DNA of 64,000 bases from Nocardia goodfellowii (GTDB lineage: Bacteria > Actinomycetota > Actinomycetes > Mycobacteriales > Mycobacteriaceae). The notes under the pieces were generated by a model. That model was not told the DNA's origin. It did not search any database and worked only from the letters and a program-made list of their open reading frames with translations. Where the stretch lies: NCBI RefSeq assembly GCF_017875645.1, contig NZ_JAGGMR010000001.1:6882001-6946000 (forward strand), written 5' to 3'. A program made the position numbers and the translations under genes. This document shows, piece after piece, positions 48,609 through 64,000 of the stretch (the stretch's first letter is position 1; every line of letters begins with the position of its first letter).

Positions 48609-49898
48609 TCATGCAGTCCGCAATTGGTCCGCAGCAGCTTTCGCTCCGGCATCCATCCCGTCGGCCACGGTGTCGAGATCATCCGGGAACAGGTGCCCAT
48701 AGAGATCCAGGGTCAGCGTCGCCGTCTTGTGGCCCAGCATCTTCTGCACCACCTTGATGTTCGCCCCAGCGCTGATCGCCAGCGATGCGGCGGTGTGCCG
48801 AAGGCTATGTGGCACAACACCTTCCAAACCCACATCTTTCGCCGCCTGATCGAACACCCAGCGGAATTCCGTTGAGGTCAGGTGACCGCCCTTGTGGCTG
48901 CCGAATACGAACGCGTCGGGTCGGCGGCCGCTCAGCAGGCTTTTCAACTCCTCAGCGAGGACCCGCGGCACCGGCACCGATCGGGTCGTGTGGTTCTTCG
49001 TATCGGTCTCCACCATGCCTGCGCCGGTGACCCGGGTGGCCGAGCGGCTCACCCGGATTCGCCGGTTGTCCACGTCGACGTTTGCCACCCGCAAGGCAAT
49101 TGCTTCGCCGAACCGAATGCCGGTATAGGCCAGAGTCATTACCAGCGGCCGGAATCGGCCGGCGACCTGCGCCACTCGCATTACTTCGAGATGTGTCAGA
49201 TAACGCCGCTCCCCCGACAGCATCGACGGCAGATCGATATCCTCCGCTGGATTCACTGCCAGCCGCTTGGCCTTCACCGCGAACCGCAACACCTGGCCGA
49301 GGACCTGATAGGACTGGATTACCCGGGACGCCGACAGCCCGCGGCCCTCGAATCTCGAACTCCCCGACACCGAGAGGTTGACCACCCATTCCTGGATGTC
49401 CTCGAACTCGATTTCCCGCAGCGGCACCGCCCTCCACCGTGGCAGCACCACAGTGTCGAGCAGCGAGCGATATCCTGCCACGGTCTTCGGCTTCCGGAAC
49501 TTCTTGGTGGCGAACCATTTTTCGGCCACCACCTCGAAAAGCACACCACTACGATCCGGGTCGACCCAGGTGCCGGTGACCACCTTTGTGGTCACGTCGC
49601 TGTCGAGGAACTTCTTGGCATCGTTCTTCACGGTGAACGAACGGTGGCGTTCGATGCCGTTCGGATCGACGTAGCGGGCACGCCACCGCTTGCCTTTGCC
49701 GAACCGCTCCTCGGACTTGACCTTCTCCTTCTTTTTCTTGCCCGTGACGGGATCGACGACCACCACGGTGGGGAACCAACGGTCCTCGATGCCGACTCGT
49801 GGATTTCGGCGCGTGGGTGGCCGTCGGGATGTCTGCGGGCTGTCGCGGTCATCCGGCTCATCGTTTGTGCTGTCGCGGCGGTGGTCCGGGGCCCTCAC
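48609..49898 (-). CDS. int: tyrosine integrase
   Basis: 429 residues. An N-terminal basic region and an AP2-like/arm-binding segment with GKGKRWRARYVDPNGIERHRSF are followed by the core-binding SAM-like domain and the catalytic domain. The catalytic residues are visible: Arg in TGIRFGE near 262, HSLRH (H-x-x-R) near 363 and Tyr in LDLYGH near 398. GTG at 49898 overlaps the xis stop by 4 bases; a longer frame starting at 50063 would run across xis. It integrates and, with Xis, excises the element at tRNA-Leu. Confidence 0.93.
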   Translation of the reverse strand: MRAPDHRRDSTNDEPDDRDSPQTSRRPPTRRNPRVGIEDRWFPTVVVVDPVTGKKKKEKVKSEERFGKGKRWRARYVDPNGIERHRSFTVKNDAKKFLDSDVTTKVVTGTWVDPDRSGVLFEVVAEKWFATKKFRKPKTVAGYRSLLDTVVLPRWRAVPLREIEFEDIQEWVVNLSVSGSSRFEGRGLSASRVIQSYQVLGQVLRFAVKAKRLAVNPAEDIDLPSMLSGERRYLTHLEVMRVAQVAGRFRPLVMTLAYTGIRFGEAIALRVANVDVDNRRIRVSRSATRVTGAGMVETDTKNHTTRSVPVPRVLAEELKSLLSGRRPDAFVFGSHKGGHLTSTEFRWVFDQAAKDVGLEGVVPHSLRHTAASLAISAGANIKVVQKMLGHKTATLTLDLYGHLFPDDLDTVADGMDAGAKAAADQLRTA

Positions 49899-50128
49899 GC
49901 GACACCGCCCCGTGCCGTGAGCTGTTCCTGCTCGGCGACCCATCCTAGAATTGCTGATTCGCGCCATACTCGCCGACGCCCCAATTTGAAACTGGCTGGG
50001 CCGGAACCGATGTGGGCCCAGTAGCGCCACGTCGCGGCCGGAATGCCCGTCAGGGCTTCGCAATCCTTGGCCTGTAGCAATCGGTCCGGACTATCTGTGC
50101 CGAAAGGTGGTCGTTTGTCCTCGTTCAT
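49895..50128 (-). CDS. xis: excisionase-like helix-turn-helix protein
   Basis: 77 residues with a MerR/excisionase-type winged helix: LLQAKDCEALTGIPAATWRYWAHIGSGP, then FKLGRRRVWRESAILGWVAEQ. The size and position just before int are those of actinomycete element excisionases. ATG at 50128 overlaps the preceding gene by 4 bases and int follows with a 4-base overlap. It should direct Int towards excision. Confidence 0.82.
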   Translation of the reverse strand: MNEDKRPPFGTDSPDRLLQAKDCEALTGIPAATWRYWAHIGSGPASFKLGRRRVWRESAILGWVAEQEQLTARGGVA

Positions 50129-51042: not shown

Positions 51043-51260
51043 GCTTCACCTGCTCGGCGGGGCGGGATCCTGTCGGCGTAATCGGGGGTGGTGAGCAGCT
51101 GGACGTGCGCACCGATGCCGTGGGTCATGTGGGTGATGAGGGCTTCGAGGTCATGGTCGTTGAGGTCGCGGATGATGTTGTCGAGGGCGGGGTGGCCGCC
51201 TGTCGCCAGCGCGGTGATGGCGGTGGCGACTAAGCGCAAGACGCGGCAGGGTTCGCTCAC
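51039..51260 (-). CDS. small protein of unknown function
   Basis: 73 residues, GTG start overlapping the preceding SLOG gene by 4 bases. Mostly helical with IIRDLNDHDLEALITHMTHGIGAHVQLL; no transmembrane helix or known motif recognised. Coding status rests on both ends being coupled: it ends within the start of the DUF2637 gene (GTGA). A longer frame up to 51734 overlaps the SLOG gene and is not used. Confidence 0.6.
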   Translation of the reverse strand: MSEPCRVLRLVATAITALATGGHPALDNIIRDLNDHDLEALITHMTHGIGAHVQLLTTPDYADRIPPRRAGEA

Positions 51261-51652
51261 CACAGGCCACCCTGCTCGCTCGGGCCACCCGGGGGCACGA
51301 TCCGTATGGGGATCCCTGCGGTTTTTGCGCGGTTGATGCAGTCGTGGGTGCCGCGGGAGCTCGGGAGTGGGAAGGCGAGGACGAGGTCGGCGCCGAGCTC
51401 GACCATGTGGGCGTTGCGGATCGGTCCGGCTGCCTTGCCGTGGCGTTCCCAGTCGGCGGGGTGACGTTCTTCGGTCACGTCGGTGTGACGGATGCACCAG
51501 TTTCGTGCGATGCGGTCTGCGCCGTGTGGGTTGTCGCCGTGGACAACGGTGAGCGCGATGTCTTGGTTGTGGTGTTCGGCCAGTGCCTGGTGGACGGTGG
51601 TGCGGTCGGTCCAGCTGCGGGAACCGGTGAGGAGAATGCGTAGCTTCTTCAT
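51257..51652 (-). CDS. SLOG-family protein (DUF2493/YspA-like)
   Basis: 131 residues. The opening LRILLTGSRSWTDRTTVHQAL, then VVHGDNPHGADRIARNW and DLVLAFPLPSSRGTHDCINRA, are the conserved blocks of the DUF2493/YspA branch of the SLOG superfamily, which binds nucleotides or nucleotide-derived ligands. Relatives occur in phages, mobile elements and defence loci. The ATG shares one base with the preceding stop (TGATG). Its ligand and role in the element are unknown. Confidence 0.75.
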   Translation of the reverse strand: MKKLRILLTGSRSWTDRTTVHQALAEHHNQDIALTVVHGDNPHGADRIARNWCIRHTDVTEERHPADWERHGKAAGPIRNAHMVELGADLVLAFPLPSSRGTHDCINRAKTAGIPIRIVPPGGPSEQGGLW

Positions 51653-52353
51653 CAGCAGGCCTCCTGGTCGATGGGTGGCTCGTAGGTGGCGCTGTAGAGC
51701 TTGGGGGCGGCGAAGTTCCGCGCCGGGGGTTCACCCAGGCCGTCGTAGCGGATGGTGCCTCGGCCGCCGACCTCGGGTTTGCGGGTGCCGGCGTCGAGGC
51801 AGGCGCCGATGAGGGCGTCGGCGATGCCGCTGCGGACCCACATCTTGCGCAGGCCGGGGCCGTAGGGCTTGGTGGTGCCGTCGGTTTGGATGATCAGGAT
51901 CGGCACCATGCGCGGGGTGCCGTCTTCGTTGAATTTCGTGGCCTTGGTGTGGAAGTCGCGGTCGGGCTCTTCCTCGATGGCGACGATGTAGAACTTGATT
52001 TCGGTGCCGGGTTCGCTGTTGCGTCCGAAAGCGGCGCGGGTGCGCGGGGTGAAGGCGTGGCGCATGGTGCCGTCGGTGGCCGGGCGGGTGGGCTTGGTGG
52101 TGGCGGTGTTGGGCATGGTCGTGGTTCTCCTCGGCGTCGTGGTGGTTTTCGTGGTGGCGGCGGTGGGCGTGACTTGGTCGTCGGGTCGTGGCGGTTGCGG
52201 TGTGGTTTGGGTTTGCGAGGTGAGCGGTAAGCCGTGCTGGCTGGCGAGTTCGTCAGCTTTGGCGTAGAAGAGGGCGGCTTCGGGGGTGCCGTCGACGCTG
52301 GCGGCGTGGGCGCGGAGTTTGGCGACCTTGTCGCGGGCTTGCGTGGGTGTCAC
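51652..52353 (-). CDS. unknown protein with DUF2786-like N-terminus
   Basis: 233 residues. Residues 1-42 (ARDKVAKLRAHAASVDGTPEAALFYAKADELASQHG) resemble the DUF2786 helical hairpin. A long Thr/Pro-rich linker (about 43-95) leads to an unrecognised domain with TEIKFYIVAIEEEPDRDF and MWVRSGIADALIGACLDAG. GTG overlaps the preceding stop by GTGA. The low-complexity linker suggests two independent domains. No function is suggested beyond element maintenance. Confidence 0.6.
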   Translation of the reverse strand: MTPTQARDKVAKLRAHAASVDGTPEAALFYAKADELASQHGLPLTSQTQTTPQPPRPDDQVTPTAATTKTTTTPRRTTTMPNTATTKPTRPATDGTMRHAFTPRTRAAFGRNSEPGTEIKFYIVAIEEEPDRDFHTKATKFNEDGTPRMVPILIIQTDGTTKPYGPGLRKMWVRSGIADALIGACLDAGTRKPEVGGRGTIRYDGLGEPPARNFAAPKLYSATYEPPIDQEAC

Positions 52354-52865
52354 CGATCCAGGCCCTCGATCTGTGGGCGGGAGTTGACCGGCACGGGGCG
52401 GGTTTCCGTCCGTTCCGGCAGCAAGGCCCCGCCGCGTTGATCTCCGGCACGGCGTGAATCCGAGACGACGTGCAGGCCATGGCCGGCGACCGACCGCAGT
52501 GGTGCGGCCGCTCGCCGATCCATTGCGGGGATCTCGGTGGATGCCAGTGGATCCGGTTCGGAGGTCGGGTCCGGGCGCGTCAGGTTCGTGGAGGTCATGT
52601 CGCGCTGATGGCGTCCGGCCCGTAGGCGCTCGTAGAGGTCGTCGGGGATCTCGGCGTACGGTTCGAGTGCCTCGATCGCGGCGTCGGGAGTCTCGATTTC
52701 GCCTGGCTCGTTGCCCAGGTCGACGGGCATGATCTCCTCGCCGTCGGCGTCGAGGCCGTCGAAGACCTGCGCGAAGTAGGTCTTCAGGGCTGGCTCGAAA
52801 CCGATGTAGACCTCGATTCCGCGGTCGGCGTGATCGTCGTTGGGTTGCAGGCGGATTCGGCTCAT
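52350..52865 (-). CDS. unknown element protein
   Basis: 171 residues. The acidic N-terminal 90 residues (IEVYIGFEPALKTYFAQVFDGLDADGEEI) look like a small globular domain; the rest is Arg/Pro-rich and probably disordered, ending IEGLDR, a weak form of the tail seen in other proteins of this element. ATG at 52865 overlaps the upstream stop. No family recognised. Confidence 0.55.
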   Translation of the reverse strand: MSRIRLQPNDDHADRGIEVYIGFEPALKTYFAQVFDGLDADGEEIMPVDLGNEPGEIETPDAAIEALEPYAEIPDDLYERLRAGRHQRDMTSTNLTRPDPTSEPDPLASTEIPAMDRRAAAPLRSVAGHGLHVVSDSRRAGDQRGGALLPERTETRPVPVNSRPQIEGLDR

Positions 52866-54610
52866 CGGTCCATCCCGTTCATCGCCGGCCGTGGGAGGAC
52901 GGGACCGTGGAAGATCGGGCGGGCCAGTTTCGGCCCGGGGGCGGGCATCGCGGGGGTGTGGGCCGGATGCTGTGCGTTGAGGTCGTGTTCGGCGAATTCG
53001 CGCACCAGGTTGGTGTTTTCGGTGCGCAGCTGGTCGTTCTCGGTATGGGCGGCGTGCAGTTCGGCGCGCAGTTGTTCCAGTTCGGCCAGCGGGGTGCGGT
53101 TGTGCTCGGTGCGGGCCTGGGAGACCTCGTCGGTGACCATGCCGCGCGGGCCGGCCGTGCTGAAGACCGGGAGTTCGTTGCCCGGCCGGTAGATACGAAC
53201 GGCGAGTTCGGCGTCGGCGGGCCAGCCTTGCTTGTCGTTGCCGATCTGGTCCAAGGCCCATCCGTAGCCGTCGGAGAGGGTGCTGACAGTGCCGCGGTCG
53301 ACCATCTCCGGGTGTTTGGTCACGAACTCTGTTGTGCCGACGACGACTTCGTAACCCGGATCCTGCTGGACCTGGTCCCGGCTGGCGGGTCGTTCCTGTT
53401 CGCTGCGGTCCCGGCCGGCCTCGCGCATGGCCGCGTACGTGGCGTGCACGGCGTCGGGTGCCGCTGCCGGCCTGGGCTCGGCAACGTCGTCGCGGGTCCG
53501 CTCAGGGGTCGGGCTTCGATCGGGTTGCGCGCCCAGCCGGTCGGTCAGCTCGCCGTTGATGTCGCGCAGGTCGTCTCGTTCGGCTGTCATCGCAGACAGT
53601 TGCCGGGCCAATCGCTCGTTCTGTTCGGCGAGGTTGCTTCGGCTCGGGTGAGCCGATTCGATGCCCTGCTCTTGCAGGAGCGCTTGGCCTTCGCGGCGGA
53701 TGCCATAGGCGAGGTCGATGTTGTTCAGGGCGGTGGCCATCAGTTCGGCGTGCACGGCACCCAGCTGGTGCGCATCGGCGATGAGCACATCGCGGTACTC
53801 GCTGGCGCGCCGGTCGTAGGCGGCCATGTCCTCGGGCGTGGGATCGCCGTGATCGGGGCCGAACCGCAGTTCGCTGTAGCGGCCGATCCGTTTGGACAAG
53901 TCCCGCAAGGTGATCGGGCGCGGGACGCCGCTGGCGGGGTCGCGGTGCAGGCCGGGGTAGTCGGCCGGCACGTAGGAGATCGGCTGGTTCGGGTCCGGGG
54001 TGAACAACCAGTCGGGCCGCTGCCGACGCTGCTCGGCCTGGGCGGCGCGTTCGGCGTGCAGCTCGTTCCACTGCTGCAATCGGCGCTGTTCAGCCGGGCC
54101 GGCCAGCCCGGCGCGCAGTCGGGTGATGCCGTCGGCCAGCTTGGCGCGCAGCGTGGTCAACCCGCTCGGTTTACCGAATATGTCTTTGATTGGCGCGTGG
54201 CGGTCGGCATGGATGCCGTCGATGGCCTGGCTGACTTGGCCTCGCTCGACTGCGGTCAAGTGTGCGGTGTTGTAGATGCTGGTGCGCAGGCGGTCGTGCG
54301 CGACGGCGAGTTCGCGACGGCGCTCGAACCAGGTTTCCTGGGTGTCCCAAGCGTGGACTGGGCTGTCCTGCACTCGTCTCCACCGGTATTCGATGACCGC
54401 GCGCTGCATCCGCGCCCGTTCGAGGGCGTGGGCGTGTTGCTGTTCCTTGGCGTCGGCCTTGACCGCCTGGTTGATCTCGCGGCGCACGCTGCGCGGCACC
54501 CGGGTAGCAGTCGGGTTCATGGTGCGCCAGGCGCTGATCAGATGGGTGATCTGGGTGCTGAGCCGGGATGTGCTGCGGGTGATTTCGTCCACCTCGTTGG
54601 TGTCAGGCAT
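52862..54610 (-). CDS. large helical/coiled-coil element protein
   Basis: 582 residues, mostly helical and charged, with repeated heptad-like stretches (LAEQNERLARQLSAMTAERDD, and ELEQLRAELHAAHTENDQLRTE near the C-terminus) and no transmembrane segment. The middle part contains GTTEFVTKHPEMVDRGTVSTLSDGYGWALDQI. It follows the membrane-protein and mini-ORF genes next to the coupling ATPase, so a transfer-related scaffold is possible. AAGGAG precedes the ATG at 54610. Not recognised as a known relaxase. It ends NGMDR, matching part of the shared junction module. Confidence 0.6.
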   Translation of the reverse strand: MPDTNEVDEITRSTSRLSTQITHLISAWRTMNPTATRVPRSVRREINQAVKADAKEQQHAHALERARMQRAVIEYRWRRVQDSPVHAWDTQETWFERRRELAVAHDRLRTSIYNTAHLTAVERGQVSQAIDGIHADRHAPIKDIFGKPSGLTTLRAKLADGITRLRAGLAGPAEQRRLQQWNELHAERAAQAEQRRQRPDWLFTPDPNQPISYVPADYPGLHRDPASGVPRPITLRDLSKRIGRYSELRFGPDHGDPTPEDMAAYDRRASEYRDVLIADAHQLGAVHAELMATALNNIDLAYGIRREGQALLQEQGIESAHPSRSNLAEQNERLARQLSAMTAERDDLRDINGELTDRLGAQPDRSPTPERTRDDVAEPRPAAAPDAVHATYAAMREAGRDRSEQERPASRDQVQQDPGYEVVVGTTEFVTKHPEMVDRGTVSTLSDGYGWALDQIGNDKQGWPADAELAVRIYRPGNELPVFSTAGPRGMVTDEVSQARTEHNRTPLAELEQLRAELHAAHTENDQLRTENTNLVREFAEHDLNAQHPAHTPAMPAPGPKLARPIFHGPVLPRPAMNGMDR

Positions 54611-54677
54611 GGGTATCGGTCTCCTTCGCTGTCGGTGGGTGGGATTGGTCGGTGGCGTGGTGGAGGGCGTTGGTCAT
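54603..54677 (-). CDS. 24-residue coupling mini-ORF
   Basis: MTNALHHATDQSHPPTAKETDTHA. Its ATG overlaps the preceding stop (ATGA, 54674-54677) and its stop overlaps the next start by eight bases. It contains the ribosome-binding site AAGGAG of the 582-residue gene. It may exist only to carry ribosomes between the two genes; a functional peptide cannot be excluded. Confidence 0.5.
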   Translation of the reverse strand: MTNALHHATDQSHPPTAKETDTHA

Positions 54678-55231
54678 CGGATGCCGCCGCGGCGCTGCTG
54701 GTAGATCTGGCGCATGCTGGGGCGGCCGTGGTTCTGCCAGATCGTGTAGGCGCTCCAGCCGGTGCCGTAGACGCACCAGGCGATGCCGATGGCGGCGCCT
54801 GCGGTGAGGAACGCGCACACCGCGATGACCACGACCACCGCGCCGGTGGCGGCCGGTCGCCACCAAAACACCAGCCAGGCGCGCAGCCGCAGAGCGGTAT
54901 CGAGCAGCGGGTCATCGAGGTCGTCCTCGATGGTGTTGCCGGGCAGGGTGGCCAGGTCGCTGGGGTCCGGGACCGCGGCGAGATGCCGACGCCGACGATC
55001 CGGCGTGTTGCGCGGGATCGCATCGGGGAACATCGCGAAAAGTTGTCCGGCACTGGGAGTTTCGACGTCGAGTCGGTCGGATTTGGGCGCTTCGAGCGCG
55101 CGGTCGGGGCCTGGTTGTTCGTCGGGGGTGAGGGGTTCGGGGGTGGTCATAGGTTTGTCCTCCTGGTCGTCGTCGTTGCTGTCGTCGGGGTTGTGGTTGT
55201 CGTCTGGGCGGCCGAAGTCGCGTTCGCTCAT
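54674..55231 (-). CDS. membrane protein of the transfer region
   Basis: 185 residues. A long acidic N-terminus (about 1-110, Asp/Pro-rich, disordered) precedes two transmembrane helices (TGAVVVVIAVCAFLTAGAAIG and the following WCVYGTGWSAYTIW) and a basic tail. It directly follows the coupling-ATPase gene with a 4-base overlap, so it probably works with it. No family recognised. Confidence 0.6.
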   Translation of the reverse strand: MSERDFGRPDDNHNPDDSNDDDQEDKPMTTPEPLTPDEQPGPDRALEAPKSDRLDVETPSAGQLFAMFPDAIPRNTPDRRRRHLAAVPDPSDLATLPGNTIEDDLDDPLLDTALRLRAWLVFWWRPAATGAVVVVIAVCAFLTAGAAIGIAWCVYGTGWSAYTIWQNHGRPSMRQIYQQRRGGIR

Positions 55232-57432
55232 GCGGGTGCTCCTTTGCCGTGGATGAGGGCGGAGCCGGCGCGCAGCCACCTCCCTCCCCGCGAGTTCGCC
55301 TGTCCGGGTACGGGTTCCATCGGGCGGAGCGCGATGTCGTCGGGGTTCAGCGGGGTGATGCGGCCCCAGGTGGCGGTGCCGGCGTGGACGTAGACGCAGT
55401 CACCGGGTTCGAGGCGCCGCAGCAGGTTCGGGTCGACCAGCAGCGCGTCCTGCATCCGGACCTGGCCTTCGTCACCGTGGCGGTCTTTGAGGGTGTGGCG
55501 TGACGGTTCCAGTGCGCGGCGGGTGCCGTAGAGGTTCACGATCTCGTCGGGGCCTTCCATCCCGAAGCACAGCAACCCACCCGACCACGCCTTCATCAGT
55601 TGTTTGGCGTCGCGGTCGGTTCCGGCCAGGGATTCGAAGGAGTGTGCGCCGACGATGCAGGCCACGCCCTGAGAGCGCAGGGCTTCGCAGGCGTCGGTGA
55701 GGCTGGCGCCTTCGGAGACGCGGCTGAATTCGTCGATGGTGAAGGTGATCTCGCAGCCGTGCGGGGTTGCGGCGACCTGTTCGACGAGTTTGATGACCGC
55801 TTTGGCCTGGGAGATCGCGACCGACTTCTGGGCGGTGCCGGGCACGGTGATGAACCAGTAGTCCTTGTCGAGCAGGTCGAACGGGCCGTCGAAGACGCCG
55901 TCGAGTTCACGGAACAGGTTGTCGAAGCGCGCGGTTTCGGCGGGCAGGACGGGCTGTTTGCCGTCGTTGGCGGCGATGATCGCGGTCAGTTCAGAGCGGT
56001 ACTCGGCGTCGGGTGGCATGACGAAGTGGCCCTTACCGTTGAACTCGCCACCCCAGGCATGCCACAACCAGGCCGCGTCGAAGCGGGCCATGAACTCCTT
56101 GGAGTTGCCGGGCGTGTTCTGCCCCGGTCCCTTGCCGGTCTCGGGGTCGGGGGCGTCGACGACCAAGTGCACCAGCGAGACGCGAAGTTCCTCGTAGAAC
56201 TTCTGTGCCGCGTCGCTGGCTTTCGCGGTCGGGGCGAGGTCTTCGATGACGTGGCGCATAGCAGCGGCGGCCAGCCCCCACAGTTTGAGCTTGTCCGCCG
56301 GGACCATCGCGATCCTCGACGGATGCACTCCGCCGGCCATCAGCGCGGCCTTCAGGTCGGCGTAGGTGACCAGGTCCTCGATGCCGCCCTTGCAGGACAG
56401 GAAGATCCCCACTGCACGTTTGGGCTTGATACCCAACGCTTTACGCACTGCGGTCGGCTTGGCCGCGGCAGCGAGATAGCGTTCGTGGGTGGCCATGTGC
56501 GCGGCCACGCTCAGCCGGCACTCCCCCGTGGTTTTGCCGGTGCCCGGCCCACCCAGGACACCGATGTGTTTGCGGACCGCGCTGTGCGGCAGCGTGAACA
56601 GCGTGTCGGTGGTCGAACCCAGTTCGCCGGCCACGGATTTGCGGTGCTGGGAAACCTGGAGGGCGCGACGTCCGAGGACGATCTGGCGTTTGCCCCGCCC
56701 GCGGCCGGTGACGATAGTCAATGGTGTGGCGCGGGTGGCGAGTTCACGGGCGGCGGCGAATTTGGCGTCGATCTGGTGGCGCTGGGCGCGTTCGGTGCGC
56801 GGTATGTCCTTCTTGCCGATGGTGTGCAGGCGGTGGCAGCGCTGTGCCCACCACCAGGTCGCGCACAGCAGCGACAGCGGCAGTCCGGCGACACTGAATT
56901 CGAGCAGTCCCGGAAGCCAGTCCCCATCGGCGACCAGCGAGCCACCATGAATGAACAGTTCCAGCGGCGTCCATGGTGAGCCGCTGACCGCAATGGTGGT
57001 GGCGGGCAGGATCAGGGATCCGGCGGCGTAGTTGCGGACGCGGGCCGGTTCGTACTCCTTGCGCCGGATCTGCCACGCGCAGGCAGCGAACGCGGCGCCG
57101 GTGAGCCCGGCCGCGGTTCCAGTGTCTGCCAGGAACGCACCAACCTGGGGCAGCCAGTCGGCGTCGGCGGAGGTGGCGGGGTCGTGATTGTCAAGGAACT
57201 GCAACCACTTCGGCTGCGGCGCACCCGAAACCGGATCTGGCGTGACCGCCTGCGGCTGCCCGCTCGGCGGCGTTGGCTGGGCTCCGCAGTCCTGTGGGGT
57301 GATCAGGGGTTTGCATTCATACACCGGTGCGCGAGCGGGAACTCGCGGGGCCGGCGCGACAGCGGTGGGTCCGCAGTCTTCTGCGGTGATGAGGGGTTTG
57401 CAGGCGGCGAGGAACTTTTCGAACGAAGTCAT
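55228..57432 (-). CDS. VirD4/TraG-like coupling ATPase
   Basis: 734 residues. Transmembrane helices lie at about 95-190, followed by an ATPase domain with Walker A GGPGTGKTT near 294 and Walker B TFTIDEFSR near 565. Sequences such as SQGVACIVGAHSFESLAGTDRDAKQLMKAW match the C-terminal part of type IV coupling proteins, which pump DNA to the recipient. The N-terminus contains two copies of CKPLITxxDCG about 30 residues apart, a local duplication. It is preceded by the replication-relaxation-like gene. The alternative, an FtsK/TraB translocase, is less likely from the motifs. Confidence 0.75.
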   Translation of the reverse strand: MTSFEKFLAACKPLITAEDCGPTAVAPAPRVPARAPVYECKPLITPQDCGAQPTPPSGQPQAVTPDPVSGAPQPKWLQFLDNHDPATSADADWLPQVGAFLADTGTAAGLTGAAFAACAWQIRRKEYEPARVRNYAAGSLILPATTIAVSGSPWTPLELFIHGGSLVADGDWLPGLLEFSVAGLPLSLLCATWWWAQRCHRLHTIGKKDIPRTERAQRHQIDAKFAAARELATRATPLTIVTGRGRGKRQIVLGRRALQVSQHRKSVAGELGSTTDTLFTLPHSAVRKHIGVLGGPGTGKTTGECRLSVAAHMATHERYLAAAAKPTAVRKALGIKPKRAVGIFLSCKGGIEDLVTYADLKAALMAGGVHPSRIAMVPADKLKLWGLAAAAMRHVIEDLAPTAKASDAAQKFYEELRVSLVHLVVDAPDPETGKGPGQNTPGNSKEFMARFDAAWLWHAWGGEFNGKGHFVMPPDAEYRSELTAIIAANDGKQPVLPAETARFDNLFRELDGVFDGPFDLLDKDYWFITVPGTAQKSVAISQAKAVIKLVEQVAATPHGCEITFTIDEFSRVSEGASLTDACEALRSQGVACIVGAHSFESLAGTDRDAKQLMKAWSGGLLCFGMEGPDEIVNLYGTRRALEPSRHTLKDRHGDEGQVRMQDALLVDPNLLRRLEPGDCVYVHAGTATWGRITPLNPDDIALRPMEPVPGQANSRGGRWLRAGSALIHGKGAPA
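57283..57315. repeat. direct repeat copy A inside the coupling-ATPase gene
   Basis: 33 bp, matching copy B at 57370-57402 in 29 of 33 positions; both encode CKPLITxxDCG (reading minus). Confidence 0.8.
57370..57402. repeat. direct repeat copy B inside the coupling-ATPase gene
   Basis: Partner of copy A, in the same reading frame, start-to-start distance 87 bp (29 codons). Confidence 0.8.
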
Positions 57433-58244
57433 CGGGCGCGGTCCTCCTTTCGGGTCGGCGCGGTCGGCAAGTCAATGGAGCGGTCCTCGATCACCCGAGT
57501 AAGCGACCGCAGCCGGATGTCCGGTTCGGCCCCGATGCGTCCGGGCTTGATGAGGTCGTCGACGACGACGCGTTCCAGGGCGTCGCCGATGCGCTTGCTG
57601 CCGTAGAGGTAGAGCAGCCCGTCCCCGAACTGTCGGGCGCGCTGGTAGGCGTTGAACACGCTGTCGGCCAGCCGTTTTCGTGAGGGACGCTTCAGGGTCA
57701 GTTCGACCTCGACCGATAGCCATTGCCCGCGGTAGCGGTAGCGTCCGTCGTGGACGTGCCCGCGGGCGATGCCCTGCTTGGTCGCAGCCACGGTGTCGGC
57801 GCGGTCGGCGAGGATCGGTGCGCCGGGGCGTTGCCCGGCCGCGATCGCGGCGTCGCGCAACAGCTTTCGTTCCGGCACCCACAACCCGGTCTCCAGCCCG
57901 CACAGTGCGGCGCGCACCTTGGCGACGGCGAGTTTGTGGGCCAAATTGCTGCTGGTCGGCTTCCAGCTCGACACCGGATACCCGAGCCGTTCAGCGGCCA
58001 CAGCCGGACGCGGCCACACCACGGTCACTTCGCGCTCGGCGTTGTCGAGGAAGATGGAAACCGAACGCAGCACGGCGAATTCGTCGCGCCAGCGTTCGAT
58101 AAGTTCGTAGGTGCGGCGCCGGCCAGTCCCACACAGCAGGCTGACGGTGGCGAAATCCAGCACCCACTGCTCGGCGGCGAACACGGTCACCTGCTCGTCA
58201 CGCTCGGTCCACCGCGAACGCGAATTCGGTCGGGAACGGTTCAT
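57429..58244 (-). CDS. replication-relaxation-like protein
   Basis: 271 residues. An N-terminal winged-helix-like part (FATVSLLCGTGRRRTYELIERW) is followed by a domain with DGRYRYRGQWLSVEVELTLKRPSRKRLADSV, the acidic VEVELT motif of the Replic_Relax family found with coupling ATPases in actinobacterial and Firmicute elements. These proteins are thought to process the transfer origin. It lies immediately upstream of the coupling ATPase with a 4-base overlap, which supports that role. The assignment is by motif and context only. Confidence 0.55.
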   Translation of the reverse strand: MNRSRPNSRSRWTERDEQVTVFAAEQWVLDFATVSLLCGTGRRRTYELIERWRDEFAVLRSVSIFLDNAEREVTVVWPRPAVAAERLGYPVSSWKPTSSNLAHKLAVAKVRAALCGLETGLWVPERKLLRDAAIAAGQRPGAPILADRADTVAATKQGIARGHVHDGRYRYRGQWLSVEVELTLKRPSRKRLADSVFNAYQRARQFGDGLLYLYGSKRIGDALERVVVDDLIKPGRIGAEPDIRLRSLTRVIEDRSIDLPTAPTRKEDRAR

Positions 58245-58267
58245 CGATCCAGCCCCCAATCCTGTTC
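58241..58267 (-). repeat. DWGLxR junction module, copy 1
   Basis: Minus-strand GATTGGGGGCTGGATCGATGA at the HTH-gene end and replication-relaxation-gene start. The 27-bp string is identical to the copy at 60872. It encodes QDWGLDR and supplies a G-rich ribosome-binding site. Confidence 0.85.
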
Positions 58268-59104
58268 TAGCCGTTGCGGTGTGGCGACCGTGCTGCGCTG
58301 ACGCTGGCGGACCACTGAGCGTTCGGTAATGCCGAGCTGGTCGGCGATCTGCCACGCCGGTGCCCCGCTGGTGGTCAGCTGCTGGATCCGTTCGTGGCGT
58401 TCAGCGCGTGCCGACGCCGGGGTCCAGCGGGCACGCACTGGCTTCGCGGTGGGGTCGTCGATGCTGTCTTCGTCCCATTCGAACGGCAGCGGCCAGCGGT
58501 GAGCGCGGCCGTGAGCACGCGCCCGATCCGACGGTCCCGGAATCATTTGCAGCCGTTCGAACAACGCTTTGACGGCCCGTTCTCGTGCGGCACTGATCGT
58601 TTCGCCGGTGCAGCCGCCGGCGGTGTTCGGTCGTCCGACCAGGCCGCTCATGGTGGCACTGGCGGGACTGATGCCGAGTTCACGTGCCAGATGGGCTTGC
58701 GGGTAGCCGTGGGCGACGAGCGCCTGGACACGCCGCTGGGCACCCAGGCTCGGCACGAGGGCGTTGTCGGCGACGACGTCAGCGGCCCGCTCGGGCACGG
58801 GCACCGCCAGGATCGCCTGTTCGACCTCGCTGGAGACCCGTTCCCAGTCCGGGCGTGCCGCGTTGGCGATCGTGACCCGATCTACCCCGGCCAGCGCCTC
58901 CAGCTGATGCGGTCGAATTCCTGCCGCTTTCAGGCGCTCGATATGGGCACGGACCTTGTCGGCGGGCACCCGGGGCTGCCAGCGCCCGTAGGCCTGTTCG
59001 CGGCGGCGGAACCGTTGATAGCTGGCCTGGCACATACCGCGGCTGTAGTCGCCAGGGCCACCGCAGCCACACGAGCACATCGGGTGACGGTCCGAAGCGG
59101 TCAT
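58241..59104 (-). CDS. helix-turn-helix protein with Cys-rich N-terminus
   Basis: 287 residues. The N-terminus CSCGCGGPGDYSRGMCQASYQRF could bind zinc. Two or three HTH-like regions follow: RPHQLEALAGVDRVTIANAA, YPQAHLARELGISPASATMSGLVGRP and APAWQIADQLGITERSVVRQRQR. It ends with the shared tail DWGLDR. The gene is bounded by two copies of the junction module. A DNA-binding regulator of the element is the simplest reading. Confidence 0.65.
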   Translation of the reverse strand: MTASDRHPMCSCGCGGPGDYSRGMCQASYQRFRRREQAYGRWQPRVPADKVRAHIERLKAAGIRPHQLEALAGVDRVTIANAARPDWERVSSEVEQAILAVPVPERAADVVADNALVPSLGAQRRVQALVAHGYPQAHLARELGISPASATMSGLVGRPNTAGGCTGETISAARERAVKALFERLQMIPGPSDRARAHGRAHRWPLPFEWDEDSIDDPTAKPVRARWTPASARAERHERIQQLTTSGAPAWQIADQLGITERSVVRQRQRSTVATPQRLEQDWGLDR

Positions 59105-59122
59105 CGGTCCAACCCCCAATCC
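59101..59122 (-). repeat. DWGLxR junction module, copy 2
   Basis: Minus-strand GGATTGGGGGTTGGACCGAT then GA, differing from copy 1 in two bases. It joins the primase-like gene to the HTH gene. Confidence 0.8.
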
Positions 59123-60141
59123 AGATCCTGGCGCCCCGGCCACCCGGCCCGCTCACGGTGCGGCATGTCGGTGGGCCGTCGCGGTCCGGTGCCACCTGGT
59201 GCGGGGTCTTGGCGGACGAAGTTCAGCTGGTCGGGCCGGATCAGGCGCAGGTCGTTGATGTCGTGGCCGGCTTCGAGGTGGTCGAACAGGTCTTTGCCGG
59301 ACGCCGTGTGCATGACGTCGATGTGGCGCGCCAGCCCTTGCAGGCGGTCGTAGACCTGGGCGGCGTGCTGGAACCCGGGCAGATCCCGGTCGGCGACGAT
59401 CACCACATGCGAAGCACCGCGCAGCTGTTCGGCGTGCTCGGGACGGAACTTGCCCGCGCCCGCGGCGTTGCAGGTCGCGGGATAACCGGCAGCGATGGCA
59501 CGGTCGACGTCCTTTTCCCCCTCGCACACCAGGATCGGGTGGCCTTCGGCGATGGCCCAGGCCACGATCGGCGCCTGGTACAGCACGGGCGCGAACCCAC
59601 CGGGAACCCACCCTTGGCGCTCGGGGTCCCAGCGGCGTTGGCTGAAGTCTTTCGCGGTGCCGTGCTCGTGCGGAGTGGCGTAGCGAATCACCTGGCCGAC
59701 AGGATCTTTCGCGGCGGTGGTGTAGGTGTATGTCGCGACCCGCCGCCGCGGCCCGGTGACCGCACCCAAGTCATCGACCGGAGTGGTCACGCCGGGCTGC
59801 GCCGCCGGGGTCGGCTGTACGGGCGTGTGTCGGGGTCCGGGCCGGTAGTTGCTCTGAGTGCGGTCGGGCAGGCGGTCGAACAGGTCCCGCACGCGCAGGC
59901 CGGCCACGCTGAGGACGTCGTCCTGGTCGCAGCGGCTAAAGCAGGTGACGATGGTCTTTTCCCGGCGCGGGTCGTATTTCACTCCGAGGGACGGGTTTCG
60001 GTCGCCGCGGCCCTTGCCGTGGGTCGGTACCGGGCAGTGGAATTTGGTCCATTCGCCGGATTGCCTGGTGGCTTCGGCGGTCACTTGCCGTAGGCCGTCG
60101 ACGACCCGGTCGTAGGAGGGTCCGTACAGGTGTCCGGTCAT
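59101..60141 (-). CDS. CHC2/TOPRIM primase-like protein
   Basis: 346 residues. The N-terminal zinc-finger-like part (CPVPTH at about 36 and CFSRC near 69) resembles the CHC2 primase zinc-binding module. A TOPRIM domain follows: ILVCEGEKDVDRA near 207 and VVIVADRDLPG near 248, giving the Glu and DxD metal ligands. It is a TOPRIM-type primase for element replication rather than an archaeo-eukaryotic primase-polymerase. No helicase domain is present, so it is not a full DnaG/T7 gp4. It ends with the shared tail DWGLDR. Confidence 0.78.
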   Translation of the reverse strand: MTGHLYGPSYDRVVDGLRQVTAEATRQSGEWTKFHCPVPTHGKGRGDRNPSLGVKYDPRREKTIVTCFSRCDQDDVLSVAGLRVRDLFDRLPDRTQSNYRPGPRHTPVQPTPAAQPGVTTPVDDLGAVTGPRRRVATYTYTTAAKDPVGQVIRYATPHEHGTAKDFSQRRWDPERQGWVPGGFAPVLYQAPIVAWAIAEGHPILVCEGEKDVDRAIAAGYPATCNAAGAGKFRPEHAEQLRGASHVVIVADRDLPGFQHAAQVYDRLQGLARHIDVMHTASGKDLFDHLEAGHDINDLRLIRPDQLNFVRQDPAPGGTGPRRPTDMPHRERAGWPGRQDLDWGLDR

Positions 60142-60875
60142 GCGCCGCTCACCGCCTGCCCGAAGGCGGCGTGGTCGAGCAGGTGCTTGCCGATCGAGCG
60201 GGTGAAGGCCGGCGGGATCGCTTCGCGCAGGCCGTCGCGGCTCATCCAGTCGATGCCCATGGCTTGGCGGGCTTGGCTGACGCCGGAGAAGTTACCGACC
60301 ACGTGCATGAACTCGCCCGGCTCCGGTGGCCGCCCCATCTTCCGCAGCGGGGCGGTGTGGCGGGGGTGTTCCGGCTGCCGGAGCACGATGTTCGACTCGA
60401 AGATCCGGTGCCGGTAGACGCGCAGGCCCTCGAACATGGTGCCGCACAACATGACCGGGTTCCGCAGTGGTGCGCCAGGGACGTTCTCGATCACCCACGG
60501 CTTGGCGCCCGCCAAGCGGAGGAAGGCGTCGCGGACCGGGCCGATGAGATCGGGGTGTGTGCGGGCGCGCAGGCGATGCGCGAGGGTGTAGAGCTGGCAG
60601 GGCGGGGAGGCGTGGTAGGCGTCGAACTCGCTGGCATGGTCGTCCAAGAAGGCCAGGGCCTCGGCCTGGTGGAACTCGAACGGATACCGGGGCTGCGGCT
60701 CGACATCGACCCCGACGACATCGAATCCGGCCCGGTAGTAACCCATTCCTGCGCCACCCTGCTTGCAGAACAGATCGAGCAGCCGCGGCTTGTGCACCCC
60801 GATCGTTGGGAGCGGCGCCGGGCTGGCGGGGCTCGGGAACGGCATATTCGGGGACCCGGGAATCGGGATGCTCAT
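60138..60875 (-). CDS. DNA (cytosine-5) methyltransferase, solitary
   Basis: 245 residues. Motif I DLFCKQGGAGMGY is at 34-46, motif II (GVDVEPQP) near 55-62, the catalytic cysteine in SPPCQ at 90-94 and motif VI ENV at 130-132. The protein is shorter than standard C5 enzymes, with a reduced target-recognition region, as in phage and mobile-element methylases. No restriction enzyme gene is adjacent, so it is probably an orphan, perhaps protecting the element on entry into a new host. The start overlaps a junction module. Confidence 0.82.
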   Translation of the reverse strand: MSIPIPGSPNMPFPSPASPAPLPTIGVHKPRLLDLFCKQGGAGMGYYRAGFDVVGVDVEPQPRYPFEFHQAEALAFLDDHASEFDAYHASPPCQLYTLAHRLRARTHPDLIGPVRDAFLRLAGAKPWVIENVPGAPLRNPVMLCGTMFEGLRVYRHRIFESNIVLRQPEHPRHTAPLRKMGRPPEPGEFMHVVGNFSGVSQARQAMGIDWMSRDGLREAIPPAFTRSIGKHLLDHAAFGQAVSGA

Positions 60876-60898
60876 CGATCCAGCCCCCAATCCTGTTC
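60872..60898 (-). repeat. DWGLxR junction module, copy 3
   Basis: 27 bases identical to copy 1 (58241). It forms the end of the RRQL gene and the start of the methyltransferase gene. Confidence 0.85.
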
Positions 60899-61303
60899 CG
60901 GAAAAGCGGATTCCGGTTCGATGCTGGCGAACCATTGCGATCCGGGGTCCCCGATCTGCCCGATCTCGCGGCGGTCGAATCCGCGGCGTTCCCACGCCCG
61001 CGCTTGGCGTTCCCGGGTCGCTTTGGCCAGGGCTTCTCGCTGCGCCGGGGTGGCGTCACGCTTGGGTGCGGCCTGATCGACGCGGTACAGGTAGGCGGTG
61101 TTGCGGGGCCGGCCGCCACCGGCGGCGGGGGCGACGATCTGGGCGGCGATGTCTTGGCCGTTGGGCCTCAGCTGCTGCGCGCGGAGTTGCCGCCGGGTGG
61201 CCAAACCTGGTGGGGCGGTGCGCCATTCGTAGGTCGGTAGCCCGAACCGGGCGCCGGTGGGGTCGGGCAGGTCGCGGCGATGGACGTTCTGAGGGCCGGT
61301 CAT
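60872..61303 (-). CDS. RRQL-motif protein without cysteines
   Basis: 143 residues with YEWRTAPPGLATRRQLRAQQLRPNGQDIAAQI and AYLYRVDQAAPKRDATPAQREAL, the layout of the actinobacterial family called RRQL motif-containing zinc-binding protein. The family's usual C-terminal cysteines are absent: there is no cysteine in the whole protein. It ends with the shared tail EQDWGLDR. Function unknown; its position between methyltransferase and unknown genes gives no clue. Confidence 0.55.
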   Translation of the reverse strand: MTGPQNVHRRDLPDPTGARFGLPTYEWRTAPPGLATRRQLRAQQLRPNGQDIAAQIVAPAAGGGRPRNTAYLYRVDQAAPKRDATPAQREALAKATRERQARAWERRGFDRREIGQIGDPGSQWFASIEPESAFPEQDWGLDR

Positions 61304-61812
61304 CGCTGCACCTCGCGATCCAGGAATTCTCCCGACAACAGCCACTGGCCCGGGACGCGGCCAGGTGTGCGCACGACCGGCGGTTTCGGGGCGTCGACGT
61401 GGAACACTCTGTCGCGCAGTGCGGGCCGGTCCGGGAGGTGTATGGCGAGGTGCGGGATCTGTTCAGCGGGGGTCGCGATGGATTTCTGGTGTTCGCGTTG
61501 TTCGAGGTCGCGGATGTGTTCGACGGCGGCGCGCGGGTCGACGCCGAGGTGGCGGGCGAGGCGGCGGATGGCGGGCCAGTCGCCGCAGGCGAGGGCCGGA
61601 ATGCGGTGGCTGTGGGACAGTTTTGCGATCAGCATCGCGTCGTGGGCCTGGTCGAGGGTGAGGTCGTTGCGGCCGGGCATCCAGGACACCTGCCAGCCGG
61701 TCTGGTGCAGGTGGGCGGTGTGGGGTAGTTCGTCGAACCACATACGGTGCTCGGTGCGGCGGATGCCGACAGTGTCGGGGTAGCTGTCGCGTGGGATGGG
61801 GTGCAGGGTCAT
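61300..61812 (-). CDS. unknown element protein
   Basis: 170 residues, ATG overlapping the preceding stop (ATGA). The sequence DWPAIRRLARHLGVDPRAAVEHIRDLEQRE suggests a helical segment, possibly HTH-like, but no family is recognised and no membrane segment is present. Both ends are coupled to neighbours, which supports coding. Confidence 0.55.
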   Translation of the reverse strand: MTLHPIPRDSYPDTVGIRRTEHRMWFDELPHTAHLHQTGWQVSWMPGRNDLTLDQAHDAMLIAKLSHSHRIPALACGDWPAIRRLARHLGVDPRAAVEHIRDLEQREHQKSIATPAEQIPHLAIHLPDRPALRDRVFHVDAPKPPVVRTPGRVPGQWLLSGEFLDREVQR

Positions 61813-62663
61813 CTGGGCTCCGGGAAGTTGTCGGGTGTCCAGCCGCCTTTGGGGCGCTGCAGTTTCGATACGTGCTTGCCGCGGCGCCACAGGTTCCAGG
61901 CGTGGACGATGAGCCCGATCTGGTCGCGGTCGCTAACGCGGGTGCGGGCGGAGCGGTGCAGGTCGAGGCGCTCACGCAGGGCCAGGATCGGGGAACCGGC
62001 GGCGAGTCCGGCGCCGCAGTCCCATGAGTGCACGAACTCGCTGGCGGCCTCGGGGTCGATTTCGGTGAGCCGGATCGCGACCGCGCACGCGACCGCGGGC
62101 CGGGCTTTGAGGCGTGCGGCGATGCTGGTGAACTGTTCGGAGATGGCGACCAATTCTGGGTAGGCGCTGGCGAATTCGACGATGCGCGTGGTGGAGATTC
62201 CGCCGCCGCGGACTTGGGCACCGAACAGGTTGCCTTCCATCCAGGTCATGTAGACGCGCAGTGCGGCAGCGACGAGGGTGGTGTTGTGCCCGGTGACGCC
62301 GGTGAGGGTGAGCTGGTCGCCGGCGGTGCGCCGGGCCCCTTGGTCCATGGTGATCTGGGTGTCGGCGGCCAGTCCGCGCACGACGAGCAGCGGCAGGCGC
62401 AGATCGGTCGTGCGGGCCAGTGCGTGCAGACGATGCTGCCCGTCCAGCAGGTCACCATCGGCGGAGAACTTGATCGTCTCGCCGTTGAAATGCCAACGGC
62501 CGCAGACAATGTCGTCGTGGTACTGCTTGACCCGGGATTCCCGGACCGGCCGGTTGTTGGTGTTGCGCTCCAGCCAGCGGCGCGCGGTCGGTGCGTCCAC
62601 CATCACGATCACGGTGGTGCCGGGCACTGGAGAGTGGTCAGGGTTGACGAGGTGCATGGTCAT
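61809..62663 (-). CDS. ParB/Srx-fold-like protein
   Basis: 284 residues. The N-terminal third holds ESRVKQYHDDIVCGRWHFNGETIKFSADGDLLDGQHRLHALA, the DGQHRL motif typical of ParB N-terminal (Srx-like) domains, also found in CTP-binding or nuclease-like proteins of phages. The C-terminal part is helical. There is no ParA partner in the window, and the next gene upstream is an HTH protein, so a partition or regulatory role is possible. ATG at 62663 overlaps the preceding stop. Confidence 0.65.
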   Translation of the reverse strand: MTMHLVNPDHSPVPGTTVIVMVDAPTARRWLERNTNNRPVRESRVKQYHDDIVCGRWHFNGETIKFSADGDLLDGQHRLHALARTTDLRLPLLVVRGLAADTQITMDQGARRTAGDQLTLTGVTGHNTTLVAAALRVYMTWMEGNLFGAQVRGGGISTTRIVEFASAYPELVAISEQFTSIAARLKARPAVACAVAIRLTEIDPEAASEFVHSWDCGAGLAAGSPILALRERLDLHRSARTRVSDRDQIGLIVHAWNLWRRGKHVSKLQRPKGGWTPDNFPEPR

Positions 62664-63385
62664 CCTTCGGAGGGGGTGGTGTGGGGAAGCCGGTCGATGA
62701 CGGCTTGCAGGGCATCACGTGCGCGGGTCAGGTCCGCGCGATGCTGTTGCGCCAACTGGGTGGCGTATCGATCGAAGCGGTCGTCGTCCACCAGTCGCTG
62801 CAGGCGTTTGGTGTCCTGCAACAGCTCCCGGCGCGCCTCGTCGAACGACTCGGTGATCGGCGACCGCTTCCGCGTCGCCGCCTGCGCCTGCCCGGCATCG
62901 GCCTCGGCTGGTCCGGATCCGAAGGGGAACTCATCCGAAGCGGCGCGTCCCGCCGCGCCGGATGAACTCTGCTGAGCGGCAAGCGGTTTCGGTGGGTAGC
63001 TCTTCCCATCACGCCCGGTTACTGGCGCATATGGATCAGGTGCGAGGTTTCTCGCACCTGCGAGGTCCTGGCGAACGGTGTAGTCGCTGACACCGGTGGC
63101 GACGGCGATGGCACGCGTGCTCATCCCGATTTCACGCAAGGAGGCAACGACTTCCGCGCGCTCCTCCCGCGGTACCCGGATCCGGGCTCGATCGAATTCC
63201 TGCGCGCAGTACTCGTCCCAGGAGTCGTAGCCGAGCGCCGCCCAGGCCCGAGTGAGATAGGCCTGCTGAATGAGCTCCCACGCAGTTTCCACATGCGCGC
63301 GAATACGGTCGGTCAGCTCCCGTGCGACCTCGCTGGTAACGGTTTCGCCGGTGGCAAGGATCTCGGCGCTGGGCAACTCGCTCAT
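62660..63385 (-). CDS. helix-turn-helix DNA-binding protein
   Basis: 241 residues. An N-terminal helical part with ELTDRIRAHVETAWELIQQAYLTRAWAALGYDSWDEYCAQEF, then an HTH EIGMSTRAIAVATGVSDYTVRQDL at about 90-112 and a helical C-terminus rich in charged residues. It resembles KorB/ParB-type HTH proteins of elements and is next to the DGQHRL protein, suggesting a two-part partition-like or control system. The start lies in a junction module. Confidence 0.65.
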   Translation of the reverse strand: MSELPSAEILATGETVTSEVARELTDRIRAHVETAWELIQQAYLTRAWAALGYDSWDEYCAQEFDRARIRVPREERAEVVASLREIGMSTRAIAVATGVSDYTVRQDLAGARNLAPDPYAPVTGRDGKSYPPKPLAAQQSSSGAAGRAASDEFPFGSGPAEADAGQAQAATRKRSPITESFDEARRELLQDTKRLQRLVDDDRFDRYATQLAQQHRADLTRARDALQAVIDRLPHTTPSEG

Positions 63386-63403
63386 CGAGCCAGCCCCCAA
63401 TCC
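63382..63403 (-). repeat. DWGLxR junction module, copy 4
   Basis: Minus-strand GGATTGGGGGCTGGCTCGAT then GA, one base different from copies 1 and 3. It joins this gene to the HTH gene. Confidence 0.8.
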
Positions 63404-63741
63404 CGGTCCAGCTCAGTCGGTTCGGCGGATTCTTCGATCGTCGGCGTGGCGGCATTGATCAGCCCTCGCGCCTCGTTGATTGTCAGGCCGAGCGATTTCG
63501 CCCACCCCTCGGCTTCGAGCCGGTCTGGTGCGACCGCCAGCCGCATCCCGGCCTTGGCCTGGTCGGAGGTGAACTGGCGGCCAGGCAGCCCGGTGAACAC
63601 CCAATGGCCGTCCCCAACATCCAGCGCCTGGTGCTGGGTCGCGTCCGAGCACATGACGCCGTGGTCGACCACGATGGACGGGATCGCCGGCGCCGCGGCG
63701 CGGGCCCATTCAGCTCTGCCCCACTTCTCGGGAAGCTTCAT
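63382..63741 (-). CDS. unknown element protein ending DWGLAR
   Basis: 119 residues. ATG at 63741 overlaps the preceding stop (ATGA). The body DVGDGHWVFTGLPGRQFTSDQAKAG and WAKSLGLTINEARGLINAA suggests a small alpha/beta domain with a C-terminal helix; no family recognised. It ends LDRDWGLAR, a one-residue variant of the shared tail. Confidence 0.55.
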   Translation of the reverse strand: MKLPEKWGRAEWARAAAPAIPSIVVDHGVMCSDATQHQALDVGDGHWVFTGLPGRQFTSDQAKAGMRLAVAPDRLEAEGWAKSLGLTINEARGLINAATPTIEESAEPTELDRDWGLAR

Positions 63742-63983
63742 CGGGTCCCCACCCCCGGTTGGCCGCATTCGGCCGGAACCGCTGCGGCGGGTGGAGATCC
63801 GGGCGCGGGGCAATAGACGATGTCGGGGGTGTGGCTGGGGCGCCCGCTGAACAGCAGCGCTCCGGCGTACAGGCCCGTGGCGAACACCAGAGCGAACACG
63901 AGAATGATCCCGCGCCGTTCCGGTGCCGCCGACCCCAGCGTCTCCCCCACCAACGCGGAGGAATCGAAGGCACGGCCACCCAT
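63738..63983 (-). CDS. small single-pass membrane protein
   Basis: 81 residues. One transmembrane helix (about 28-48, IILVFALVFATGLYAGALLF), then a short extracytoplasmic Pro-rich tail with two cysteines (VYCPAPG and AECGQPG) that could pair. ATG at 63983 is preferred to a TTG three codons earlier. It is the most upstream visible gene of the chain, and its own upstream region lies at or past the window edge. Role unknown. Confidence 0.5.
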   Translation of the reverse strand: MGGRAFDSSALVGETLGSAAPERRGIILVFALVFATGLYAGALLFSGRPSHTPDIVYCPAPGSPPAAAVPAECGQPGVGTR

Positions 63984-64000
63984 GGCATGCAAGGCGTAAT

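Follow-up and report, generated by a model that had tools for sequence, protein, structure and literature searches.

A short nucleotide repeat ends several genes and starts the following ones in an integrated mobile element, part of which lies in the stretch analysed here (the window; 64,000 nucleotides of Nocardia goodfellowii, G000:C1:6882001-6946000, in a 7.98-Mb genome of two contigs). We judge, with slightly better than even confidence, that this repeat encodes a C-terminal peptide tag, probably for docking, that is carried by a subset of proteins and overlaid with the translation start of the next gene. At the level of sequence comparison, the tails are shown to be common within an element, different between element types, present on several of the same protein families and, in another tail type, able to survive uncoupled from a downstream start. 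In related elements some of these proteins bear another tail, which makes the tail look like a functional protein tag. We infer that the tag sits on a flexible arm and docks its proteins onto one common partner. Its core would be a hydrophobic residue followed by [D/E]-R at or near the C-terminus (DWGL[DA]R in the window), its carriers some of the replication and regulatory proteins of the element, and its place the tip of a flexible or disordered arm; its codons would also spell the ribosome-binding site and ATGA overlap of the next gene. The putative partner may be an element protein or a host factor, with the tagged proteins acting or travelling together.

The repeat, GGATTGGGGGYTGGNNCGATGA, occurs in four exact 22-bp copies on the minus strand. 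At up to three mismatches, the window yields the same four matches only, with 0.02 expected and at least four reached in 0 of 100 shuffles. At each copy the upstream open reading frame (ORF; called by simple ORF chaining) stops while an ATGA opens the downstream one, the two overlapping by 4 nt. The encoded tails are DWGLAR on W2 and DWGLDR on W6, W8 and W9, in the following arrangement.

58241..58262, minus strand: module copy 1, exact GGATTGGGGGYTGGNNCGATGA match
59101..59122, minus strand: module copy 2, exact GGATTGGGGGYTGGNNCGATGA match
60872..60893, minus strand: module copy 3, exact GGATTGGGGGYTGGNNCGATGA match
63382..63403, minus strand: module copy 4, tail codons with GGGGG ribosome-binding site and ATGA overlap
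63382..63741, minus strand: W2, 119 aa, tail LDRDWGLAR; DWGL[ADG]R tail in five of five compared elements
62660..63385, minus strand: W3, 241 aa, weak HTH_23, untailed; absent or displaced in three of four related elements
61809..62657, minus strand: W4, 282 aa, untailed (FPEPR); moves together with W3
61300..61812, minus strand: W5, 170 aa, weak HTH_36, end LDREVQR; D[RW]G[MVW]DR in the other four elements
60872..61303, minus strand: W6, 143 aa, RRQRL motif zinc-binding protein (NF041638), tail PEQDWGLDR
60138..60875, minus strand: W7, 245 aa, untailed in the window; DWGVDR in locus L096
59101..60141, minus strand: W8, 346 aa, primase-like (Toprim), tail DLDWGLDR
58241..59104, minus strand: W9, 287 aa, helix-turn-helix (HTH) protein, tail LEQDWGLDR
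57429..58244, minus strand: W10, 271 aa, end EDRAR; relatives have TA, HS or EAS-type ends
55228..57432, minus strand: W11, 734 aa, TraG/VirD4-like ATPase with a weak TrwB_AAD_bind match just under the Pfam cut-off; never tailed
52862..54610, minus strand: W13, 582 aa, coiled-coil-like by eye, weak tail NGMDR; relatives have NGLDR or RNGIERSR
52350..52865, minus strand: W14, 171 aa, weak tail EGLDR at 52350

These results bear out a preliminary description of this DNA, which had reported four junction copies that end one gene and start the next, each combining a DWGLDR or DWGLAR upstream C-terminus with a G-rich ribosome-binding site and an ATGA overlap. Two further points made there were likewise reproduced, namely the identity of copies 1 and 3 over 27 bp (GAACAGGATTGGGGGCTGGATCGATGA) and weaker forms at 52350 (GATCGAGGGCCTGGATCGGTGA, giving EGLDR) and 52862 (end GGGATGGACCGATGA, giving NGMDR). 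The genes around copies 1 and 3 had been described as unrelated, and the seven window genes matching the tail pattern (W10 with its EDRAR included) show no mutual BLAST similarity (E up to 0.05) once their last 10 residues are clipped. A 14-bp core, GGATTGGGGGYTGG, is present five times in the genome, in the four module copies and at one other place where no CGATGA follows it.

The evidence that the peptide itself matters comes from other Nocardia elements, in which the primase-like, HTH, RRQRL zinc protein and W13 families bear a different shared tail, mostly [IV]ER[TSG]R or RTR[ST]R. The comparison covers 60 loci picked by hand from about 130 listed matches, and the 30 W6 loci obtained out of roughly 90 matches; loci related to one another do not count as independent. 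The closest relatives of W8 end in [DE]WGL[DE]R in 19 of 19 cases, and among the next 45 listed (P0020-P0064) 31 end in R[ST]R, six in G-x-[EA]-[PL] and the rest differ. By locus, W8 ends in DWGLDR in five elements and in R[STAIG]R in 31 loci (R[ST]R in 24); its relatives in plasmid and phage records, of which two Nocardia plasmids were inspected, are less than 60% identical. Of 54 W9 relatives, 17 have the end D[WR]G[LV]xR or -Q, while another group has RERTR or similar; by locus, W9 ends in DWGL[DS]R in five and in [IVRL]ERTR, PIQRGR or AIVRGR in ten. W6 carries DWGLDR in the window and in L095, and RER[TS]R-like ends (ERTR, ERSR or GRTR) in ten ER-type loci; W13 ends in NG[ML]DR in four and in NGIERSR or DPIERSR in three; and a 131-aa gene family, fam36, has DWGLDR in L095, its relatives ending in RER[TSG]R or RRTR. 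(A GIY-YIG-like assignment of fam36 made by eye was dropped, as Pfam gave no match.) The change of tail is linked within loci; L105, L106, L107, L116 and L142, for example, each combine a W8 end R[ST]R with a W9 end ERTR. Eight other loci, whose W6 relatives end differently, are exceptions, as are L118, L144 and L150 for their W13 relatives.

Tails are also a property of particular families. After clustering with the last 12 residues clipped, some families were mostly tailed (fam5 25/28, fam14 9/11, W9 12/15) and others untailed (W11 0/31, W18 0/28, W15 0/23), W10 being tailed in 1/28, the sole case being the EDRAR of the window. Under the strict pattern fam1 (31/57) and fam6 (15/28) are mixed, and the 40/95 of the largest cluster says little because fused genes merge W5, W6, W8 and W16 in it. 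Within the W6 family (NF041638), 55 of the best 120 of 826 relatives end in G-hydrophobic-[DE]-R. The same ending closes 19 of the 30 W6 loci, with ATG, CTG, TTC, TGG, ATA, GTG and TAC as codons for the hydrophobic position, and three of these 19 lack the overlap (TAG, then ATG). Most W6 relatives labelled Streptomyces end otherwise; P0175, labelled S. gardneri, ends in WDGFDR.

Adjacent unrelated genes can share a tail peculiar to their element. Five neighbouring genes of L202, with no mutual similarity, end in WQGFDR, WDEVDR, WKGFDR, WQGFDR and WEGFDR, and L191 and L217 have WEGF[DE]R or WDGFER tails (L191 with a single weak local hit); short stretches of similarity between the tailed neighbours make local duplication possible in L197, L210 and L211. 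We compared 78 tailed genes from 28 W6 loci and the five DWGL elements, selected by their last three residues, using 118 within-element pairs that were all without BLAST similarity. Residues -8 to -4 scored 10.35 within elements versus 2.01 between them, a difference reached in 0 of 1000 shuffles, while control windows further upstream gave 100, 125 and 564 of 1000. Such ends are rare on the chromosome: among 345 ORF-called control genes one ends in [ILVM][DE]R and none in [DE]R[TSG]R, and the 45 with a 4-nt overlap gave one and none, respectively. By comparison, [ILVM][DE]R ends close 25/108 genes of the window and its four related elements, and [DE]R[TSG]R ends 102/401 genes of ER-type loci.

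The ER-type loci separate the peptide from the translation signal. Near W8, 106 genes in 28 such loci end in [DE]RxR. At distances above 20 nt from the next start, the tail has T as its third residue in 12/15 and a Shine-Dalgarno (SD)-like word in 0/15; where the start lies at -1 to +4, T occurs in 4/54 (mostly S or G instead) and an SD-like word in 49/54 (Fisher 8e-8). At a 4-nt overlap, the figures are 15/31 and 19/31. By this comparison, the peptide is kept and its codons are tuned to the distance of the next start. Variant tails on W8 and W9 add further uncoupled cases: of the 31 loci where W8 ends in R[STAIG]R, 27 have the next start 25-47 nt away, and the PIQRGR end of W9 relatives persists in L136 and L138, where the following gene starts 55 and 48 nt away, respectively.

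Next to this stands a constraint on the DNA. An exact scan of GTDB genomes gave three matching stretches, two of Nocardia elegans and one of a Nitrospira metagenome-assembled genome, and a scan of 401 family genomes at up to one mismatch gave five with a match including that of the window. G163 (of another genus than the window's) has three copies and each of the remaining three genomes a single one. The near-matches, one apiece, in G171, G012 and G427 were set aside and are not counted as module copies, that in G171 being a WDWGRDR end in a seemingly chromosomal context (by eye) and that in G012 a DCGLGR within ten codons after an in-frame stop. Two further elements, in G131 and G123, were reached through W8 homologues. 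A genus scan at three mismatches was discarded as mostly noise, with 116 of 150 genomes among the matches listed and a reversed-pattern control that often matched too, and a scan of viral contigs with two patterns gave no match. Across the window and four related elements, 24 genes have a D[WR]G[LMVW]xR end, and each of them shares a 4-nt overlap with the start that follows, which supports the earlier description of the module as a coupling junction. Every copy (24/24) uses GGG, and the first codon is GAT in 20/24 against 24% expected (p 1e-9), so the bases matter beyond the peptide. Likewise, a peptide-level scan for DWGL[DE]R followed by a stop gave 11 hits in 150 genomes, all with GAT, GGG, YTG and [AG]TGA. 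The idea of a connector acting purely at the DNA level thus holds in part: the base constraint is clear in the window's family, but that the tail is a mere by-product is not supported, as several of these families elsewhere have another shared tail that is also kept with neither a start codon nor a Shine-Dalgarno word nearby (13 of the 15 clearest cases being one family).

The placement of the tails fits a tag on a flexible arm. In AlphaFold models of W8 and W9, the two proteins checked, the tail ends (residues 343-346, together with 314-339, and residues 273-287, respectively) have a predicted local distance difference test score (pLDDT) below 50. C-terminal short linear motifs, such as the SSB tail and encapsulin cargo peptides, consist of a few residues that end a disordered arm. 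The Nocardia tails resemble them in placing the same residues on non-homologous proteins, in the low-confidence ends of the W8 and W9 models; they differ in that the motif varies by element type and switches on several proteins together, and in that the receptor is putative.

Several observations weigh against a peptide tag. In the window's own family no uncoupled tail was found, all 24 copies overlapping the next start; the GAT bias (20/24) shows base-level constraint or copying, and all 11 hits of the peptide-level scan are coupled. The independent uncoupled cases are few, since the 15 uncoupled ERxR tails comprise 13 from fam6, one from fam1 and one stray ORF. Within the W6 family, P0162 is 83% identical to W6 and ends in LPDRGL, further relatives deviate as well, and the pattern could be partly nucleotide-level because most of the hydrophobic codons share a middle T. 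Lastly, there are BLAST matches between some tailed genes in ELEG, L062, L095, L096, L133, L191, L197, L210 and L211, including related tailed genes inside one element (W2 and W5 in ELEG, L096 and L062; three genes in L133).

An extension of the tag, which we put forward tentatively, is that it serves as an element-wide mark of identity. In Nocardia mobile elements the tail would be placed on a defined set of proteins and differ per element type, a matching element-encoded receptor would keep the proteins of co-resident elements apart, and, the tag being fused in the DNA to the translation start, a captured gene would be tagged and coupled in one step.

A somewhat unlikely explanation is that the repeat works as a translation module at the nucleotide level, with Shine-Dalgarno word, spacer and ATGA held in fixed phase and kept or copied within the element, and the tail as a by-product. 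The complete coupling, the GGG and GAT usage and the coupled peptide-level hits described above all favour it, as does a predicted pairing of -12 to -15 kcal/mol with an assumed 16S 3'-end sequence. Against it, the ER-type loci keep their tails without coupling or SD-like word, coupled yet untailed families exist (W10, W11), and several of the same families are tailed across element types. The nearest DNA-level analogue is the start-associated sequence (SAS) of cluster K mycobacteriophages, a short repeat, found where some of the non-structural genes start, with a Shine-Dalgarno word inside and conservation beyond it. According to the excerpt of PMC3203893 consulted, SAS lies mostly 3-7 bp upstream of starts, may contain the upstream stop codon and is of unknown function. 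The Nocardia module is similarly found in one orientation near the starts of a gene subset with a Shine-Dalgarno word inside. In contrast to SAS, for which that excerpt mentions no common tail, it is read in one frame and yields a shared C-terminus, and its relatives keep the tail without the translation signal. A search of the window for the 13-bp GGGATAGGAGCCC-like SAS repeat at two mismatches gave four matches against 2.06 expected, none of them in the element part (48507-64000). Ordinary ATGA translational coupling has the 4-nt stop/start overlap and the upstream Shine-Dalgarno word in common with all 24 copies, but ordinary overlaps share no peptide, a G-[ILVMW]-[DE]-R end being present in 0/45 chromosomal overlap genes.

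The preliminary description had also proposed that the module is a connector, with homologous exchange between copies inserting, deleting or swapping genes in frame. We compared gene order from W2 to W10 in five elements. Tailed genes are marked (t).

Window: W2(t) W3 W4 W5 W6(t) W7 W8(t) W9(t) W10
N. elegans: W2(t) W5(t) F24 W8(t) W9(t) W10
G163: W2(t) W3 W4 W5(t) u92(t) W8(t) W9(t) W10
G131: W2(t) W6(t) u95 W5(t) W3 W4 u96 W8(t) W9(t) u131(t) u257 W10
G123: W2(t) W5(t) F24 W7(t) W8(t) W9(t) W10

The successor gene is variable at 5/7 tailed junctions versus 2/10 others (27/48 versus 3/62 pairwise, where pair counts reuse the same elements); for these counts the gene lists were hand-typed and two L062 genes were equated by position. 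W3-W4 is missing from this stretch in two of five elements and stands behind another tailed gene in a third. W6 follows W2 in G131 and W5 in the window, and its neighbours differ between the window and L095, where it is flanked by two module copies; the 27-bp identity of copies 1 and 3 points the same way. Gene content therefore does vary at these borders, as had been suggested, but exchange through the repeat itself is unproven: breakpoints fall at gene borders in any case, the W3-W4 pair that moved has a module at just one of its sides, and five of five elements have the same tailed W8|W9 junction. The check for gain or loss between copies holds as a pattern and not as a mechanism, because the pairwise figures reuse elements, the comparison is confounded by the tails being on the accessory genes, and the W3-W4 module is one-sided. 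We regard recombination between copies as an improbable explanation of the repeat. As a separate observation, W5 lacks the tail in the window (LDREVQR, 61300-61320) precisely where W6 with its intact tail comes next, the four other W5 relatives being tailed.

Equally doubtful, and offered as a lead only, is a translocation signal by which the TraG/VirD4-like ATPase W11 would recognise tailed proteins, letting them enter the recipient with the DNA. Type IV secretion system (T4SS) substrates can carry Arg-rich C-terminal signals, which the tails resemble in being C-terminal, partly Arg-rich and located on replication and DNA-handling proteins; DWGLDR differs, being acidic-aromatic and not Arg-rich. 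W11 itself is never tailed and co-occurs with both tail types, and an F-plasmid system is described in the excerpt of PMC8406263 consulted as transferring plasmid proteins (ParA, ParB, SSB and Psi proteins) into recipients. The identity of W11 is weak, however, its match lying under the Pfam cut-off, and no secretion apparatus genes were recognised in the rest of the 43.9-kb element, whose ORFs were read by eye without a hidden Markov model (HMM) scan.

It is very unlikely that the tail acts as a degron or as a protective stability signal recognised by the host's proteolysis, which would give the element's regulators a common half-life and account for tails on regulators and replication proteins but not on the ATPase or integrase. 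Host proteolysis should read one signal and yet the tail varies by element type within one genus, and a charged C-terminal Arg is unlike known ClpXP tags.

If the peptide tag is real, element proteins of unknown function could be grouped by their tails, and a short peptide could fish out the shared partner. The parallel tails across element types would be a natural experiment in receptor-tag specificity. One sequence would serve as peptide motif, ribosome-binding site and start codon at once, and the trade-off would show in whether the ER tail has T, S or G at a given distance from the following gene. A literature search of limited scope found no publication on a shared tail in mobile elements.

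The element itself spans about 43.9 kb (G000:C1:6930507-6974432; window 48507 onward; L046, L188) between 58-bp repeats of tRNA-Leu(CAA). The tRNA gene lies at window 48479-48564, and its last 58 bp are exactly repeated at G000:C1:6974375-6974432.

48507-48564: attachment repeat in tRNA-Leu(CAA), with its 58-bp exact copy outside the window at G000:C1:6974375-6974432
48609..49898, minus strand: tyrosine integrase of the element, untailed

Besides the integrase, the element encodes a primase-like protein and gives two weak matches, one to an excisionase-like HTH and one to a TrwB/VirD4-type ATPase. As features of a putative actinomycete integrative conjugative element, the integrase and tRNA repeat are clear, while the HTH_17 and TrwB_AAD_bind matches are both under their cut-offs. 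The predicted structure of W8 resembles the DnaG primase catalytic domain (Foldseek E 1.6e-4). Searches gave no family match for W2, no fold match for W9 at E 0.001 or better, and no match in PDB sequences for W8 and W11.

Additional tails were seen in other loci. A third shared tail, DDGLDL / GDGLDI / DDGLEL, is found on neighbouring genes of L144 (11641-14372) and L150 (near 12679), again without overlap because the gaps are 14 to 81 nt. Long fused primase-like proteins in L127, L140, L151 and L153 end in E[QKR]GLGR or EDGVGR, and the RRQRL-type proteins encoded after them in TPGVER, TPEVGR, SPEVGR or EPDMGR. One of these loci, L153 (G000:C2:15654-16535), is on the small contig of the window's own genome and holds a second, distant W8 relative with its own tail EDGVGR, giving two element types per cell. 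In the right half of the window's element, genes resembling nucleases, a helicase and other possible defence cargo were noted by eye, and L046:7890-8495 is a long run of tandem units of about 36 bp that reads VTAVPMTTFTSP in one frame and GTAVTGEVKVVI on the opposite strand.

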